The notes under the pieces: generated by a model
The model's input: the letters and a program-made list of their open reading frames with translations, nothing else
What the model was told of the DNA's origin: nothing
Databases searched by the model: none
NCBI RefSeq assembly: GCF_003149145.1
Contig: NZ_QGDQ01000001.1
Coordinates: 434,001-498,000, forward strand
Length of the DNA: 64,000 nt
DNA from: Quadrisphaera granulorum
GTDB lineage: Bacteria; Actinomycetota; Actinomycetes; Actinomycetales; Quadrisphaeraceae
Direction of reading: 5' to 3'
Made by a program: the position numbers and the translations under genes
Shown: in pieces, positions 8,932 through 43,153 of the stretch
Layout of the letters: every line of letters begins with the position of its first letter
Numbering within the stretch: position 1 is the first letter of the stretch

Positions 8932-8975
8932 CCATGATCACGGATGGGTGGGGGGGGGCCAGCGCCCATGATCAC
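8932..8975. repeat. Two direct CCATGATCAC repeats flanking a G9 tract
   Basis: Exact CCATGATCAC copies at 8932-8941 and 8966-8975 are 34 bp apart, each followed by GGAYGGG. Between them is a run of nine G (8950-8958). They belong to a repeat family also found near 35.7, 51.2, 51.8 and 54.3 kb and lie between a gene start on the minus strand and the end of the aminotransferase gene. Confidence 0.8.
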
Positions 8976-24777: not shown

Positions 24778-25650
24778 GTGTTTCGCAGTCCGCTGCGCGT
24801 CCTCGATGACGCCGACCGCGCCGACGTGCTCGCGCTGTGCGTGCAGGACCCGGTGGCGAGCATCTTCGTGACCAGCCGCGTCGCCGCCGTCGGTGCCGCG
24901 CCCGCCCGCCTGGGCGGACAGCTGTGGGGCTGGGGCTCACCGGGGCGCCTGCAGGCGCTGTGCTGGGACGGCGCCAACCTCGTGCCGGTGCTCAGCCCCT
25001 CGCTGTCGCGGGAGGAGAGCGTCGCCGCGCTCGACGCCTTCGCGGCGCGCGCCCGGCGGGTCGGTCGCCGCTGCTCCTCCCTGGTCGGCTCGGCGGCCGG
25101 CGTGCTGGGCCTGTGGGAGCGGCTGCACATGAGTTGGGGCCCCGCCCGCGACGTGCGGCCCGACCAGCCCCTCATGGCCATCCGCACTCCTCCGCTGGTG
25201 TTACCCGACCCCGCCGTCCGCCGAGCCACCGCCGCTGACCTCGACGTGCTGGTACCCGCGTGCATCGCCATGTTCACCGAGGAGGTCGGGTACTCCCCGA
25301 CAGCCGGCGACGGCGGCGCCACCTACCGCCGCCGTGTGGAGGAACTCGTGGCCACCGGACGTTCCTACGTGCGCATCGAGGGCAGCGGCAGTTCCCGCGA
25401 GGTCGTCTTCAAGGCCGAGCTCGGCGCGGTGGCCCCCGGCGTCGCGCAGGTCCAGGGGGTCTGGGTGCACCCCGAGCACCGCGGCCGCGGCATCGCCGAG
25501 CCGGGCATGGCCGCCGTCGTCCTGTCCACCCAGCAGGCCGGCTACCCCGTGGTCAGCCTCTACGTCAACGACTACAACACCCGCGCGGTGCGCGCCTACG
25601 AGGCTGTCGGCTTCGAGCGGGTCGGCACCTTCGCCACCGTCCTCTTCTGA
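24778..25650 (+). CDS. GNAT family N-acetyltransferase with DUF4081 N-terminal domain
   Basis: A 290-residue two-domain protein. Residues 1-135 match the DUF4081 region found fused to GNAT domains in Actinomycetota (VASIFVTSRVAAVG, GGQLWGWGSPGRLQALCWDGANLVPV). Residues 140-290 form a GNAT domain with VAQVQGVWVHPEHRGRGIAEPGMAAVV (acetyl-CoA loop HRGRGIA) and YVNDYNTRAVRAYEAVGFERVG. This protein regularly sits between ispG and proS in actinobacterial genomes, as here, but its acceptor substrate is unknown. GTG 24778 is the only start that keeps the N-terminal domain without running into ispG. Confidence 0.88.
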   Translation: MFRSPLRVLDDADRADVLALCVQDPVASIFVTSRVAAVGAAPARLGGQLWGWGSPGRLQALCWDGANLVPVLSPSLSREESVAALDAFAARARRVGRRCSSLVGSAAGVLGLWERLHMSWGPARDVRPDQPLMAIRTPPLVLPDPAVRRATAADLDVLVPACIAMFTEEVGYSPTAGDGGATYRRRVEELVATGRSYVRIEGSGSSREVVFKAELGAVAPGVAQVQGVWVHPEHRGRGIAEPGMAAVVLSTQQAGYPVVSLYVNDYNTRAVRAYEAVGFERVGTFATVLF

Positions 25651-25652
25651 CT

Positions 25653-25730
25653 GTCCCGCCCAGCATGCAGAAGTCCGTTGGCCGTGCTCGGCGCCTCGCG
25701 TCAGGCGCACTTCTGCATGCTGGACGGGAC
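25653..25730. repeat. GCAGAAG-type hairpin repeat, copy 1
   Basis: Arms 25653-25674 and 25709-25730 pair over 22 bp with one mismatch; the left arm contains GCCCAGCATGCAGAAGT. It starts 3 bp after the GNAT stop and contains the stop and last codons of the minus-strand AbiEi/DUF559 gene. A second copy lies at 26652-26728. It can serve as a bidirectional terminator. Confidence 0.85.
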
Positions 25731-26627
25731 GACCGGCGGAGGCGCTGAACCGGTCAGCAGGGCCTGGGTGTCCTGCAGCACGCCAGCCACCCATTCCTGG
25801 TCGAACATCACCTGCTCCCAGGCGAAGCGCAGGACCGTCCAACCGTCGGCCACGAGGTCGTTGTAGCGACGGCAGTCCGACGCCAGCGCGGCTCTCTTGC
25901 CGTGCCACTCGAAGCTGTCAGCCTCGCTGACCAGCTTGAGACGACGGTCGACGAGGTCTGGACGCACCAGCCCGCTGCGAAGCTCGAGCAGAACCTGGGG
26001 CCGGAGGCCCTGAACCCCGGCTTGGATGGCGATGCCTCGCAGCGCTGACTCGAACGGGTTCGCGGCGTCGGGAGACGCGTGCTGAGCCACCCGCCTCACC
26101 GCCGTCCGCCCCGCGCCGAAGGTGGTGTCAGCACGAGCCAGGAGTTCCTCCTGGGTGACCAGACCACGGCGTAGCGCGGAGTCCGCAACCGCAAGCCCCT
26201 CGGGGAACGGAAGCGTGCGCGCGCAGTCCACGACCGTCCGGAGGGGAGTCGTGACCAGGCCGTTGATGTCGGAGTTTGGCAGGTCGCACCAGTGGGGGAC
26301 GAGTCCCCGCTCCTGCAACCGGCGGTTGCGTCGCACGGTGACATGGGGAAGTGCTGGCGGCTTCACGAGGTCCATCAACCAGAGCTGGGCCGCGCTGGTG
26401 TGCGAGGCGACGCCCCGCACGCGGGCGGCTGCGAGCAATGGCGGGTGCTGGCTCGAAAGCGCGTAGACGCCGCGAGACAGCCGCAGGACACGGCCACTGT
26501 CGAGGGCGCGGCGCATCGAGCGCCGATCGATGTCCAGTTCGCCGCTCAGGGCGGTGCCTCCGCGTCGCCAGATCTCGCGGCACACGTCAGTGATCTCCAC
26601 GCCTTGACGGTGGGCCATCTGGCACAT
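25701..26627 (-). CDS. AbiEi-type winged-helix plus DUF559 nuclease-fold protein
   Basis: A 308-residue protein with two regions. Residues about 15-60 match the N-terminal wHTH of type IV AbiEi antitoxins (GGTALSGELDIDRRSMRRAL, then RLSRGVYAL). The C-terminal 110 residues match DUF559, a very-short-patch-repair-like PD-(D/E)XK fold (RPDLVDRRLKLVSEADSFEWHG with candidate metal ligands Asp and Glu, then DGWTVLRFAWEQVM). These combined proteins are common orphans in Actinomycetota; no AbiEii toxin is adjacent. The last ten residues (ending SSMQKCA) are encoded by a hairpin repeat, and a second copy of that repeat lies just upstream of its start. The start (26627 or 26618) has no clear ribosome site. 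It is less GC-rich by eye than its neighbours. Confidence 0.82.
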   Translation of the reverse strand: MCQMAHRQGVEITDVCREIWRRGGTALSGELDIDRRSMRRALDSGRVLRLSRGVYALSSQHPPLLAAARVRGVASHTSAAQLWLMDLVKPPALPHVTVRRNRRLQERGLVPHWCDLPNSDINGLVTTPLRTVVDCARTLPFPEGLAVADSALRRGLVTQEELLARADTTFGAGRTAVRRVAQHASPDAANPFESALRGIAIQAGVQGLRPQVLLELRSGLVRPDLVDRRLKLVSEADSFEWHGKRAALASDCRRYNDLVADGWTVLRFAWEQVMFDQEWVAGVLQDTQALLTGSAPPPVVPSSMQKCA

Positions 26628-26651
26628 CAGATGTGGATCTTGTCCACAGGC

Positions 26652-26728
26652 GTCCCGCCCAGCATGCAGAAGTCACCATGACCCGCCTCAGAGGCCTTAT
26701 CGGCCGACTTCTGCATGCCCGACGGGAC
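26652..26728. repeat. GCAGAAG-type hairpin repeat, copy 2
   Basis: Left arm 26652-26673 is identical to the left arm of copy 1; right arm 26707-26728 pairs with three mismatches. The loop differs from copy 1. It lies between the AbiEi/DUF559 start and proS, in the same orientation as copy 1 and 999 bp from it. Confidence 0.85.
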
Positions 26729-26766
26729 GCGGCGGCGGCCGGAAGAGGCGCCAGTAGGGTCGGGGG

Positions 26767-28560
26767 GTGCTGTTGAGGACCTCCACGCTGCTCCTGCGCA
26801 CCCTGCGCGAGGACCCGGCCGACGCCGAGCTGGCCAGTCACAAGCTGCTCGTGCGCGCCGGCTACATCCGCCGCGCCGCCCCGGGTGGCTTCTCCTGGCT
26901 GCCGCTGGGCCTGCGGGTGCTCAAGAAGGTCGAGGCCATCGTCCGCGAGGAGATGGACGCCATCGGCGGCCAGGAGGTGCACTTCCCGGCGCTGCTGCCG
27001 AAGGAGCCCTACGAGGCCACCGGCCGGTGGGAGGAGTACGGCCCCAACCTCTTCCGCCTGCAGGACCGCCGCGGCGCCGACTTCCTCCTCGCACCCACCC
27101 ACGAGGAGATGTTCACGCTGCTGGTCAAGGACCAGTGCTCGTCCTACAAGGACCTCCCGCTGACCCTGTACCAGGTCCAGACGAAGTACCGCGACGAGGC
27201 GCGCCCCCGCGCGGGCCTGCTGCGCGGGCGGGAGTTCGTCATGAAGGACAGCTACTCCTTCGACGTCGACGACGCCGGCCTCGAGAAGGCCTACCAGCGC
27301 CACCGCGAGGCGTACGTCCGGATCTTCGACAGGCTCGGCCTGGAGTACGTCATCGTCTCGGCCGTCTCGGGCGCCATGGGCGGCTCGGCCAGCGAGGAGT
27401 TCCTCCACCCCAGCCCCCAGGGCGAGGACACCTACGTGCGCTCCGCCGGCGGGTACGCCGCCAACGTCGAGGCCGTCACCACGGTCCCGCCGGCCCCGGT
27501 GAGCTGGGAGGGCGCGCCGCCCGCCGTCGTCCTGGACACCCCCGACACTCCCACCATCGACACCCTGGTGGCGGTCTCCAACCAGATCCACCCCCGCGAG
27601 GACCGCCCGTGGGAGGCCGCCGACACGCTGAAGAACGTCATCGTGCTGCTGCGCCACCCCGACGGCTCCACCGATCCGCTGGCCGTCGGCGTGCCCGGTG
27701 ACCGCGAGGTCGACCCCAAGCGCCTCGAGGCGGCGGTCGCGCCCGCCACCGTCGAGCCGTTCGACGAGGCGCAGTTCGCGAAGCACCCCGAGCTGGTCAA
27801 GGGCTACATCGGCCCCGGCGGTCTGGGCCTGCGACCCACCGGTGAGGTCGGCCCGGACGGCCAGCCCGTCACCACGGGCATCCGCTACCTGCTCGACCCG
27901 CGCATCGCCCCCGGCACCGCCTGGGTCACCGGCGCCGACCAGCCCGGCAAGCACGTCTTCGGGCTTGTCGCCGGCCGTGACTTCACCGGTGACGGCACCA
28001 TCGACGCCGCCGAGGTCCGCGACGGCGACCCCGCCCCCGACGGCTCCGGCCCGTTGGAGACCGCCCGCGGCATGGAGATGGGCCACATCTTCCAGCTGGG
28101 CCGCAAGTACGCGCAGGCCCTGGGCCTGCAGGTCCTCGACGAGAACGGCAAGCTCGTCACCGTCACCATGGGTTCCTACGGCGTGGGTGTCTCGCGCGCC
28201 GTCGCCGCCATCGCCGAGGCCGGCCACGACGAGCTGGGCCTGGTCTGGCCGCGCGCTGTCTCCCCGGTCGACGTGCACGTCGTCGTCGCCGGAAAGGACG
28301 CCGCGGTGGTCGAGGGCGGCGAGCGCCTCGCCGCCGAGCTGGTGGCCGCTGGCCTCGACGTGCTCCTGGACGACCGCCCCCGCGTCAGCCCGGGCGTGAA
28401 GTTCAAGGACGCCGAACTGGTGGGCGTCCCCACCATCGTCACGGTCGGCAAGCGCCTGACCGAGGGCGTCGTCGAGGTGCGCGACCGGGCCACCGGCGAG
28501 CGCACCGACGTGCCCGTCGAGGACGCCGCGCGCCACCTCGTCGCGCTCGTGCGCGGCTGA
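26767..28560 (+). CDS. proS: Proline--tRNA ligase (bacterial type with editing insertion)
   Basis: A 597-residue class II aminoacyl-tRNA synthetase. Motif 1 region [21 protein letters not shown], motif 2 [29 protein letters not shown] and motif 3 [16 protein letters not shown] are all present. The INS editing domain fills about residues 220-390. The C-terminal anticodon-binding domain begins near [11 protein letters not shown] and contains [24 protein letters not shown]. It charges tRNA-Pro in the cytosol and hydrolyses mischarged Ala-tRNA-Pro. A GTG start at 26767 directly precedes [14 protein letters not shown], the normal N-terminus. It follows the second GCAGAAG hairpin. Confidence 0.97.
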
Positions 28561-38440: not shown

Positions 38441-38490
38441 GACATGATCGGCCCTCCCGGGAACGGCGTGCATCGGTCGTCGGCAACCAG

Positions 38491-38581
38491 CGTCCGTACC
38501 CACCGTCCGTACCCACCGTCTGCACCGACCGTCTGCACCGACCGTCTGCACCGACCGTCTGCACCGACCGTCTGCACGGAC
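38491..38581 (+). repeat. 13-bp tandem repeat, seven copies, upstream of truB
   Basis: Seven head-to-tail 13-bp units: two of CGTCCGTACCCAC, four of CGTCTGCACCGAC and one CGTCTGCACGGAC. They fill the gap between the GGDEF-EAL start and the truB start and end 7 bp before the truB GTG. Confidence 0.92.
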
Positions 38582-43098: not shown

Positions 43099-43153
43099 GA
43101 TCACGCAGAAGACCCGCACCCCAGCGCCCACGGTGCGGGTCTTCTGCATGATC
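43099..43153. terminator. Hairpin combining GATCA and GCAGAAG elements
   Basis: GCAGAAGACCCGCACC (43105-43120) pairs perfectly with 43132-43147, and the flanking GATCAC/ATGATC adds further pairs with one mismatch. It lies between the DUF779 stop and the S49 peptidase gene. The stem is long and GC-rich, and it carries both motifs of the CCATGATCAC and GCAGAAG repeat families; a terminator role for the aldehyde dehydrogenase operon is likely. Confidence 0.75.

Follow-up and report, generated by a model that had tools for sequence, protein, structure and literature searches.

A gene for a predicted two-part nuclease, lying between a GNAT gene and proS in Quadrisphaera granulorum, is enclosed by two matching hairpins whose family is also dispersed through the genome. 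On balance we favour the reading that this unit is one copy of a self-spreading element built like the REPtrons, in which the nuclease is of a non-HUH kind; that the protein would bind and cut DNA, and would drive the movement of the repeats, is what we infer from the computed anatomy of the unit, its recurrence with lineage-specific arms, the dispersed hairpin copies, the differences between species at individual sites and the predicted fold. The window denotes the whole stretch of DNA that was analysed (64,000 nucleotides); G000 denotes this genome, G001 to G005 five congeners and G010 a genome of the same family.

The layout of the unit is a hairpin, a conserved TGTGGA leader, the gene and a hairpin that overlaps the stop codon (Table 1). 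As the preliminary description had it, the 23-nt left arms of the two hairpins are identical, the hairpins lie in the same orientation, and their starts are 999 bp apart; it had also traced the last ten residues of the protein to the repeat, and the C-terminus is indeed encoded there, with the stop codon and nine residues (VPSSMQKCA), not ten, falling within the 3' hairpin. The GTG start codon was chosen by alignment with the congeners; the alternative, the first ATG, would place the start at 26627. The palindrome of the leader, which we take to be DnaA box-like, was found at the same place in congeners, and among homologs TGTGGA or its complement was present within 260 bp upstream in 74 of 78 (expected 0.09 per 270 bp), frequently directly after the 5' hairpin.

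Table 1. Features of the unit at the GNAT-proS locus, in window positions.
Feature	Position	Strand	Remarks
AbiEi-like + EDxHD/Vsr-fold nuclease gene (DUF559; fold predicted)	25701..26600	-	299 aa from GTG at 26600; open reading frame and homologs
Stop codon of nuclease gene	25701-25703	-	inside 3' hairpin
3' hairpin, arm type A	25653..25730	.	arms 25653-25675 and 25708-25730; encodes the C-terminus of the gene product
5' hairpin, arm type A	26652..26728	.	arms 26652-26674 and 26706-26728; arms equal to those of the 3' hairpin
17-bp palindrome TGTGGA-CAAGA-TCCACA (gene-strand reading)	26632..26648	-	between 5' hairpin and start codon; read from sequence

The AbiEi/DUF559 architecture that had been proposed for the protein was weak to moderate by sequence and clear by fold. 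Profile searches returned PF04480 (DUF559; E 4.4e-5) and the PADLOC AbiEi model (E 8.5e-17), and the only solved structure reached by sequence was 3hrl (E 0.27). An AlphaFold2 model built from a 64-sequence alignment had a mean pLDDT of 95.1; in this predicted model, residues 1-176 resembled the AbiEi antitoxin 6y8q_A (Z 10.5, rmsd 4.6, 173 aligned of 195), and the N-terminal part also matched Rv2827c (1zel; Z 6.5), a match that is weak if taken alone. Residues 181-284 of the model resembled the catalytic domain of I-Bth0305I (3r3p_A; Z 13.4, rmsd 2.1, 96 aligned, chain of 97 residues), and residues 179-283 resembled Vsr (1cw0; Z 11.2, rmsd 2.2, 100 aligned). H233 and D242 were invariant among the 64 sequences, and E184, D215 and D228 were at least 90% conserved; these are candidate catalytic residues of the fold. 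With high confidence, then, the protein is predicted to join an AbiEi-antitoxin-like DNA-binding module to a nuclease of the fold of Vsr and I-Bth0305I, an EDxHD homing endonuclease, and these fold matches argue for the REPtron-like reading.

The hairpins of the unit are two of many. The core GCATGCAGAAGT occurred four times in the window at up to one mismatch (shuffled mean 0.08; none of 100 shuffles reached four), and across the genome the 13-nt core was found at 28 places with one mismatch allowed, 14 on each strand (against 8 and 5 for the reversed pattern). The pattern GCAGAAN{28,40}TTCTGC was matched at 54 places in this genome and its control at none, a dispersal that favours a self-spreading unit; of 41 matches listed among the 54, 35 were 49-50 nt long, and most of the other six look like a separate, terminator-like set. 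The same pattern was found at 31, 9, 13, 25 and 4 places in the five congeners (controls 2, 0, 1, 2, 1) and at 4 places in G010 (control 0); the other 22 genomes gave 0-4 places, with controls of 0-6. The preliminary description of a repeat-bounded cassette stands as regards the hairpin-gene-hairpin unit, but the hairpins are not specific to the site; they form a dispersed family that accompanies a gene family, and the earlier interpretation as a whole is partly supported.

Two arm types were distinguished; type A arms start with GTCCCGCC and type B arms with GTGACG, GCAGAA coming next in both. An alignment of 19 copies showed conserved arms and a variable middle. Among 54 copies from several genomes whose outer arms fit type A (28) or type B (26), the loops paired for the most part no more than shuffled partners would, with pairing somewhat above expectation at positions 14, 15, 23 and 26 of type B; this lack of a selected long stem counts against the REPtron-like reading. 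Because the arms are conserved at near-fixed spacing and the middle is mostly unpaired beyond shuffled expectation, the conserved element looks more like two inverted arms at a near-fixed distance, and hence a protein-binding site, than like a long RNA stem. A structural RNA was set aside on the same loop pairing and on an Rfam scan of 25400-26900, in which no match came near the gathering score.

At one locus (L013, 5994-8477) four hairpin clusters followed one another at distances of 675-874 bp, and some of the intervals held ORFs that resemble each other, which gives the impression of a joint duplication of gene and hairpins.

The unit, gene plus a hairpin at each end, was present between GNAT and proS in all five congeners, and G010 carried the gene and the proS-side hairpin up to a contig end that cuts the locus. 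GNAT and proS had been assumed to be normally adjacent, which did not hold: about 1.4-1.5 kb of additional sequence separated GNAT from the nearer hairpin in every congener. In G000 and G002 the arms were of type A and the gene was opposed to proS, and in G001, G003, G004 and G005 the arms were of type B and the gene was co-directional with proS; the proteins of the two type A species were 87% identical, and identity across types was 65-67%. That one site holds two arm types in two orientations favours a self-spreading unit. The gene ended within the 3' hairpin in four of the five congeners, the frame of G005 reading through, and the stop codon of G010 was also in the hairpin. Neither a lone hairpin without the gene, which had been suggested as a sign of insertion, nor a gene universal at the site with unrelated flanks was seen there; where the gene stood, in five of five congeners, two matching hairpins stood with it. 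Farther away, GNAT and proS were present in G008, G016 and G019 with no match to the window protein in the gap, G007 and G013 had a homolog without this hairpin, and in four further distant genomes the stretch compared held proS alone.

Genes of the same family also lay between matched hairpins at other loci and in other genomes; a general cassette system, for instance of an integron-like kind, would be a wider hypothesis. A second gene copy of G003, away from proS, had type A-like hairpins, of which the 3' hairpin (that of L215) was read by eye, and a further copy in G002, likewise elsewhere, had arms of a third type, C. The type C site held a decayed gene in G003 and a partial one in G004, and no match was found there in G000 or G001. 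These copies with matching hairpins speak for the REPtron-like reading. Against it, type B hairpins are common in G000, whose sole close gene copy is of type A, and type A hairpins occur in G001, whose sole close gene copy is of type B. The protein tree supported the groupings G000+G002, G001+G004 and G003+G005, its resolution not extending to the deeper forks; arm type did not map onto resolved deep clades, which also counts against the REPtron-like reading.

Orthologous sites gained or lost single hairpins, again as a self-spreading family might. Anchors were obtained for 15 hairpin loci, of which 11 were compared in up to three congeners and four of the 11 aligned in detail. At one site G000 and G004 had both a B and an A hairpin, G001 had B alone, and G002 had A with a degenerate B; typed hairpins at L010, L015 and L016 were seen only in G000, and the hairpin of L014 was common to G000 and G001. 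These are differences of presence and absence, the flanks being too diverged to fix exact ends or target duplications; neither a target-site duplication nor a clean empty site with a single hairpin, as a MITE or other small transposon would leave, emerged from these comparisons, which counts against the REPtron-like reading. In G002, Ns lay inside the hairpin of L209 aligned with L024; repeats of this kind may be difficult to sequence or assemble, and the numbers for G002 and for draft genomes generally may be underestimates.

A scan of one genome per species over 84,980 species returned 96 loci, and the 80 best were carried forward; two of these (L091 and L138) were contig-end artefacts that overlap themselves and were left out of the strong-hairpin test, leaving 78. 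Strong hairpins were found at the 5' end of 23 and the 3' end of 28 of the 78 loci, and 27 of the 28 at the 3' end spanned the stop codon. At 14 loci both ends were hairpinned, and in all 14 an arm 10-mer was common to both ends; of the 446 control windows taken at these loci, only one held a strong hairpin. These figures speak for the REPtron-like reading. In the shared 14-mer test, for which 78 of the best 80 loci were testable, 36 had a 14-mer common to both ends versus 5 of 571 offset controls; a 16-nt match between ends was present at 24 of 78 loci and in none of 571 controls, and the 5' end best matched its own 3' end at 34 of 80 loci, two of them the artefacts. Chance bracketing was rejected on these control counts. 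The remaining 42 of 78 had no shared 14-mer, about half of the loci thus lacking detectable matched ends, and this counts against the REPtron-like reading. Because of the anatomy, the recurrence and the control counts, the association of gene and hairpins is very likely real.

Many relatives in Nocardioides, Janibacter, Marmoricola and other genera were bracketed by matched hairpins, and the arm sequence differed by lineage. Some of these other arms were dispersed too, in support of a self-spreading unit. The Janibacter arm pattern was found 7, 5, 7, 2, 0 and 13 times in six genomes (controls 0), the gene brackets accounting, by position, for 2, 2, 2, 1, 0 and 2 of these. The ACAAGT arm pattern occurred 10 times in Marmoricola (control 1; brackets, 2 of the 10) and 4 times in N. 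aequoreus (control 0; bracket, 1 of the 4). In four other genomes ACAAGT counts were 0, 2, 0 and 0 (controls 2, 1, 0, 0): the Sinomonas genome of L128 gave 0 (control 2) though its gene is bracketed, the 5' arm there being ACAACTC; another Sinomonas genome gave 2 (control 1); and two further genomes, whose genes are not known to carry such arms, gave 0. The Nocardioides pattern CGTACGGACC was found 4, 3 and 2 times in three genomes and not in the other five of eight (controls 0); without the brackets (1, 2 and 1), the three counts are 3, 1 and 1. The small exact-pattern counts that remain outside the genus after bracket removal, and the zeros in five of eight Nocardioides genomes, count against the REPtron-like reading, as does the absence of relatives from viral contigs in one scan. 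In its favour, two hairpins 1060 bp apart that had been found by pattern in J. limosus enclosed a relative that shares 41% identity with the window protein and whose stop codon lies inside the hairpin (the one stretch of this kind examined).

The window holds a second dispersed repeat family around ATGATCAC, at 8934, 8968, 35737, 35779, 51248, 51279, 51813, 51844 and 54312, its members frequently 31-34 bp apart or inverted.

Repeats of this second family, of the form CATGATCACSG, were mostly 31-32 bp apart, two spacing sub-types being read by eye; 31, 24, 5, 7, 50 and 37 pairs were counted in G000 to G005, 7 in G013 and 8 in G016, and none in five other family genomes or in the controls. A distant paralog of the nuclease gene was bracketed by inverted CATGATCACSG arrays at one locus in G001, G002, G004 and G005, flanked by what we take by eye to be purL, and this pairing of a paralog with repeats of its own favours the REPtron-like reading. 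No gene and no repeats were detected there in G003, and a contig end interrupts the locus in G000. Another paralog was CATGATCACSG-bracketed likewise in G004 and G005, and the distant paralogs L168, L169 and L176 had matched hairpins with still other arms. Against the REPtron-like reading, three weaker paralogs of G000 (L228-L230) had neither the GCAGAA-arm hairpin family nor CATGATCACSG nearby.

On contigs C34 and C33 of G000 (L224 and L225), CATGATCACSG lies at positions 162 and 192 of both, near the contig starts; these equal positions, and the contig end that divides the paralog site, suggest that this genome has the CATGATCACSG-paralog element in more than one copy.

REPtrons, in which a RAYT gene accompanies GTAG-type REPs or REPINs, share with the present unit a single gene set between palindromic repeats of which further copies are scattered over the genome, and different repeat types accompanying different gene copies. 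REPs are described in PMC3733652 as frequently near gene ends and paired, and those of the GTAG kind as hypothetically moved by RAYT transposases. The differences are as follows: in place of an HUH/Y1 transposase, which was found in none of six genus genomes, there is an AbiEi-like module with a predicted Vsr-fold nuclease; the arms are about 23 nt long, the loop varies in sequence at near-fixed length, and the 3' repeat carries the stop codon; and a GTAG/GGAG tag was not enriched: in 32 copies it stood at 2 of the 64 arm ends, its frequency among background 12-mers being 7.5%. CGTC-tagged REPs are likewise dispersed palindromes reported without a dedicated transposase, but they are, according to PMC3733652, mostly of alpha-Proteobacteria and have stems of 8-9 bp. 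The C-terminal domain is predicted to share the fold of I-Bth0305I and the Vsr mismatch endonuclease, and differs from both in that it is fused to an AbiEi-like module and a complete hairpin stands at either end of its gene. With the AbiEi and Rv2827c antitoxins the protein shares the predicted fold of residues 1-176 and the presence of inverted repeats near the gene; in PMC7319586, AbiEi and Rv2827c are reported to bind 23-bp inverted repeats and AbiEi proteins to autoregulate, and the inverted 23-nt arms found here may, by analogy, be bound in the same way. Unlike those antitoxins, this protein has an additional nuclease domain, repeats at both ends and genome-wide, and no AbiEii among its four neighbours.

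We reasoned that, if the REPtron-like reading is right, the AbiEi-like half would bind the inverted arms, as AbiEi antitoxins do 23-bp inverted repeats, and the EDxHD/Vsr-fold half, going by the model, would cut at the arms; repair or copying would then spread hairpins to new sites and, more rarely, the whole unit.

A different reading, which we consider unlikely, is that the protein is a DNA-binding regulator or chromosome organiser, with the repeats as selected, helix-phased binding sites, autoregulation through the sites at both ends and some other role, such as repair, for the nuclease domain. The behaviour described for AbiEi proteins (PMC7319586) would suit it, as would arms held at near-fixed spacing around drifting, mostly unpaired loops, and the regular spacing of the CATGATCACSG repeats. 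The gene is under purifying selection (dN/dS 0.10, 0.18, 0.17 and 0.21 in four pairs), which a regulator would also explain. Further support comes from the arrangement of hairpins in pairs: among 34 copies drawn from the window and from 17 further stretches of this genome (32 typed, two untypable), 12 adjacent pairs were found, of which 11 were A+B and one untyped+B, none being AA or BB, and their core-to-core gaps were 36-38, 45-47 or 58 nt, a set consistent with a period of 10.5 bp (R 0.864, Rayleigh p about 1e-4). This phasing is only suggestive, because the pairs may descend from one ancestral pair and the gap values would then be non-independent. Against the regulator reading, 9 of 18 hairpin clusters lay between convergent genes by a crude gene call, which is not promoter-like; the 3' hairpin overlaps a stop codon and not a promoter; and hairpin sites vary freely among close species.

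Quite unlikely, in our judgement, is that a free-standing homing endonuclease uses older host hairpins as its homing sites and copies itself between two of them by break repair, the hairpin family not being its creation. The likeness of the predicted catalytic domain to I-Bth0305I speaks for it, and that enzyme is described in PMC3943268 as a dimer whose target approaches 60 bp in length; gene copies at different loci with similar arms, and the occurrence of type A and type B hairpins where the genome has no gene of the corresponding type, would be expected of it as well. Against this, the arms differ by lineage together with the gene, the 22 more distant genomes do not have this hairpin family above background, and a complete hairpin stands on each side of the gene, where a homing site would be one split site.

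Passive bracketing, by which an unrelated element spreads the hairpins and the gene is caught between them by chance or by a terminator-like preference, is very unlikely. The hairpins are dispersed and frequently near gene ends, and the array of L013 has ORFs of another kind between its hairpin clusters; yet it is around one gene family that matched brackets recur, in several genera and with differing arms (1 of 446 control windows), and the J. limosus pair held a relative of the gene. As for the element itself, a RAYT or IS200-type mobilisation was set aside, since PF01797 (Y1_Tnp) was detected at E <= 0.001 in none of the six genus genomes and in 5 of 14 controls; the same result is in keeping with the REPtron-like reading with its non-HUH nuclease.

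That this is an ordinary type IV toxin-antitoxin or defence gene with meaningless flanking repeats is extremely unlikely, for all the PADLOC AbiEi matches and the AbiEi-like fold, as the nuclease domain and the brackets fall outside that model and the four neighbouring ORFs scanned with Pfam encode GNAT (DUF4081/GNAT), proS (tRNA synthetase), ispG (GcpE) and TauE; because none of the four is an AbiEii toxin, the toxin-antitoxin role offered in the preliminary description is unsupported.

Returning to the REPtron-like reading, we hold it possible, if somewhat short of an even chance, that the unit represents a widespread class, in actinobacteria, of palindromic repeats that are mobile or maintain themselves. 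In such a class the place of HUH transposases would be taken by a DNA-binding module of toxin-antitoxin type joined to a nuclease of homing-endonuclease fold, in many independent gene-repeat pairs that each recognise their own arms. The repeat types of Quadrisphaera number at least four, namely A, B, C and CATGATCACSG. The data suggest a little-noticed mobile-repeat family run by an unexpected enzyme; among the literature matches listed, none concerned DUF559 or AbiEi genes bracketed by repeats. With RAYTs as the hypothesised movers of GTAG REPs, a second, unrelated enzyme with its own repeats would, if real, offer a new route to the origin and spread of such repeats, and would give a likely role to AbiEi-DUF559 genes, now catalogued in the libraries used as of unknown function or as AbiEi antitoxins. 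Protein and sites are small, lineage-variable and testable in vitro, and the lineage-specific gene-arm pairs form a natural data set on how AbiEi-type domains read DNA.

Two other repeats were observed in the window. At 43105-43147 (genome C1:477105-477147) lies a GCAGAAGACCCGCAC inverted repeat with a short loop, of which similar 43-44 nt copies occur on C3, C14, C20 and C28 and which looks like a recurrent terminator; and at 38465-38581 a 13-bp unit is arranged in tandem, with seven start positions listed.
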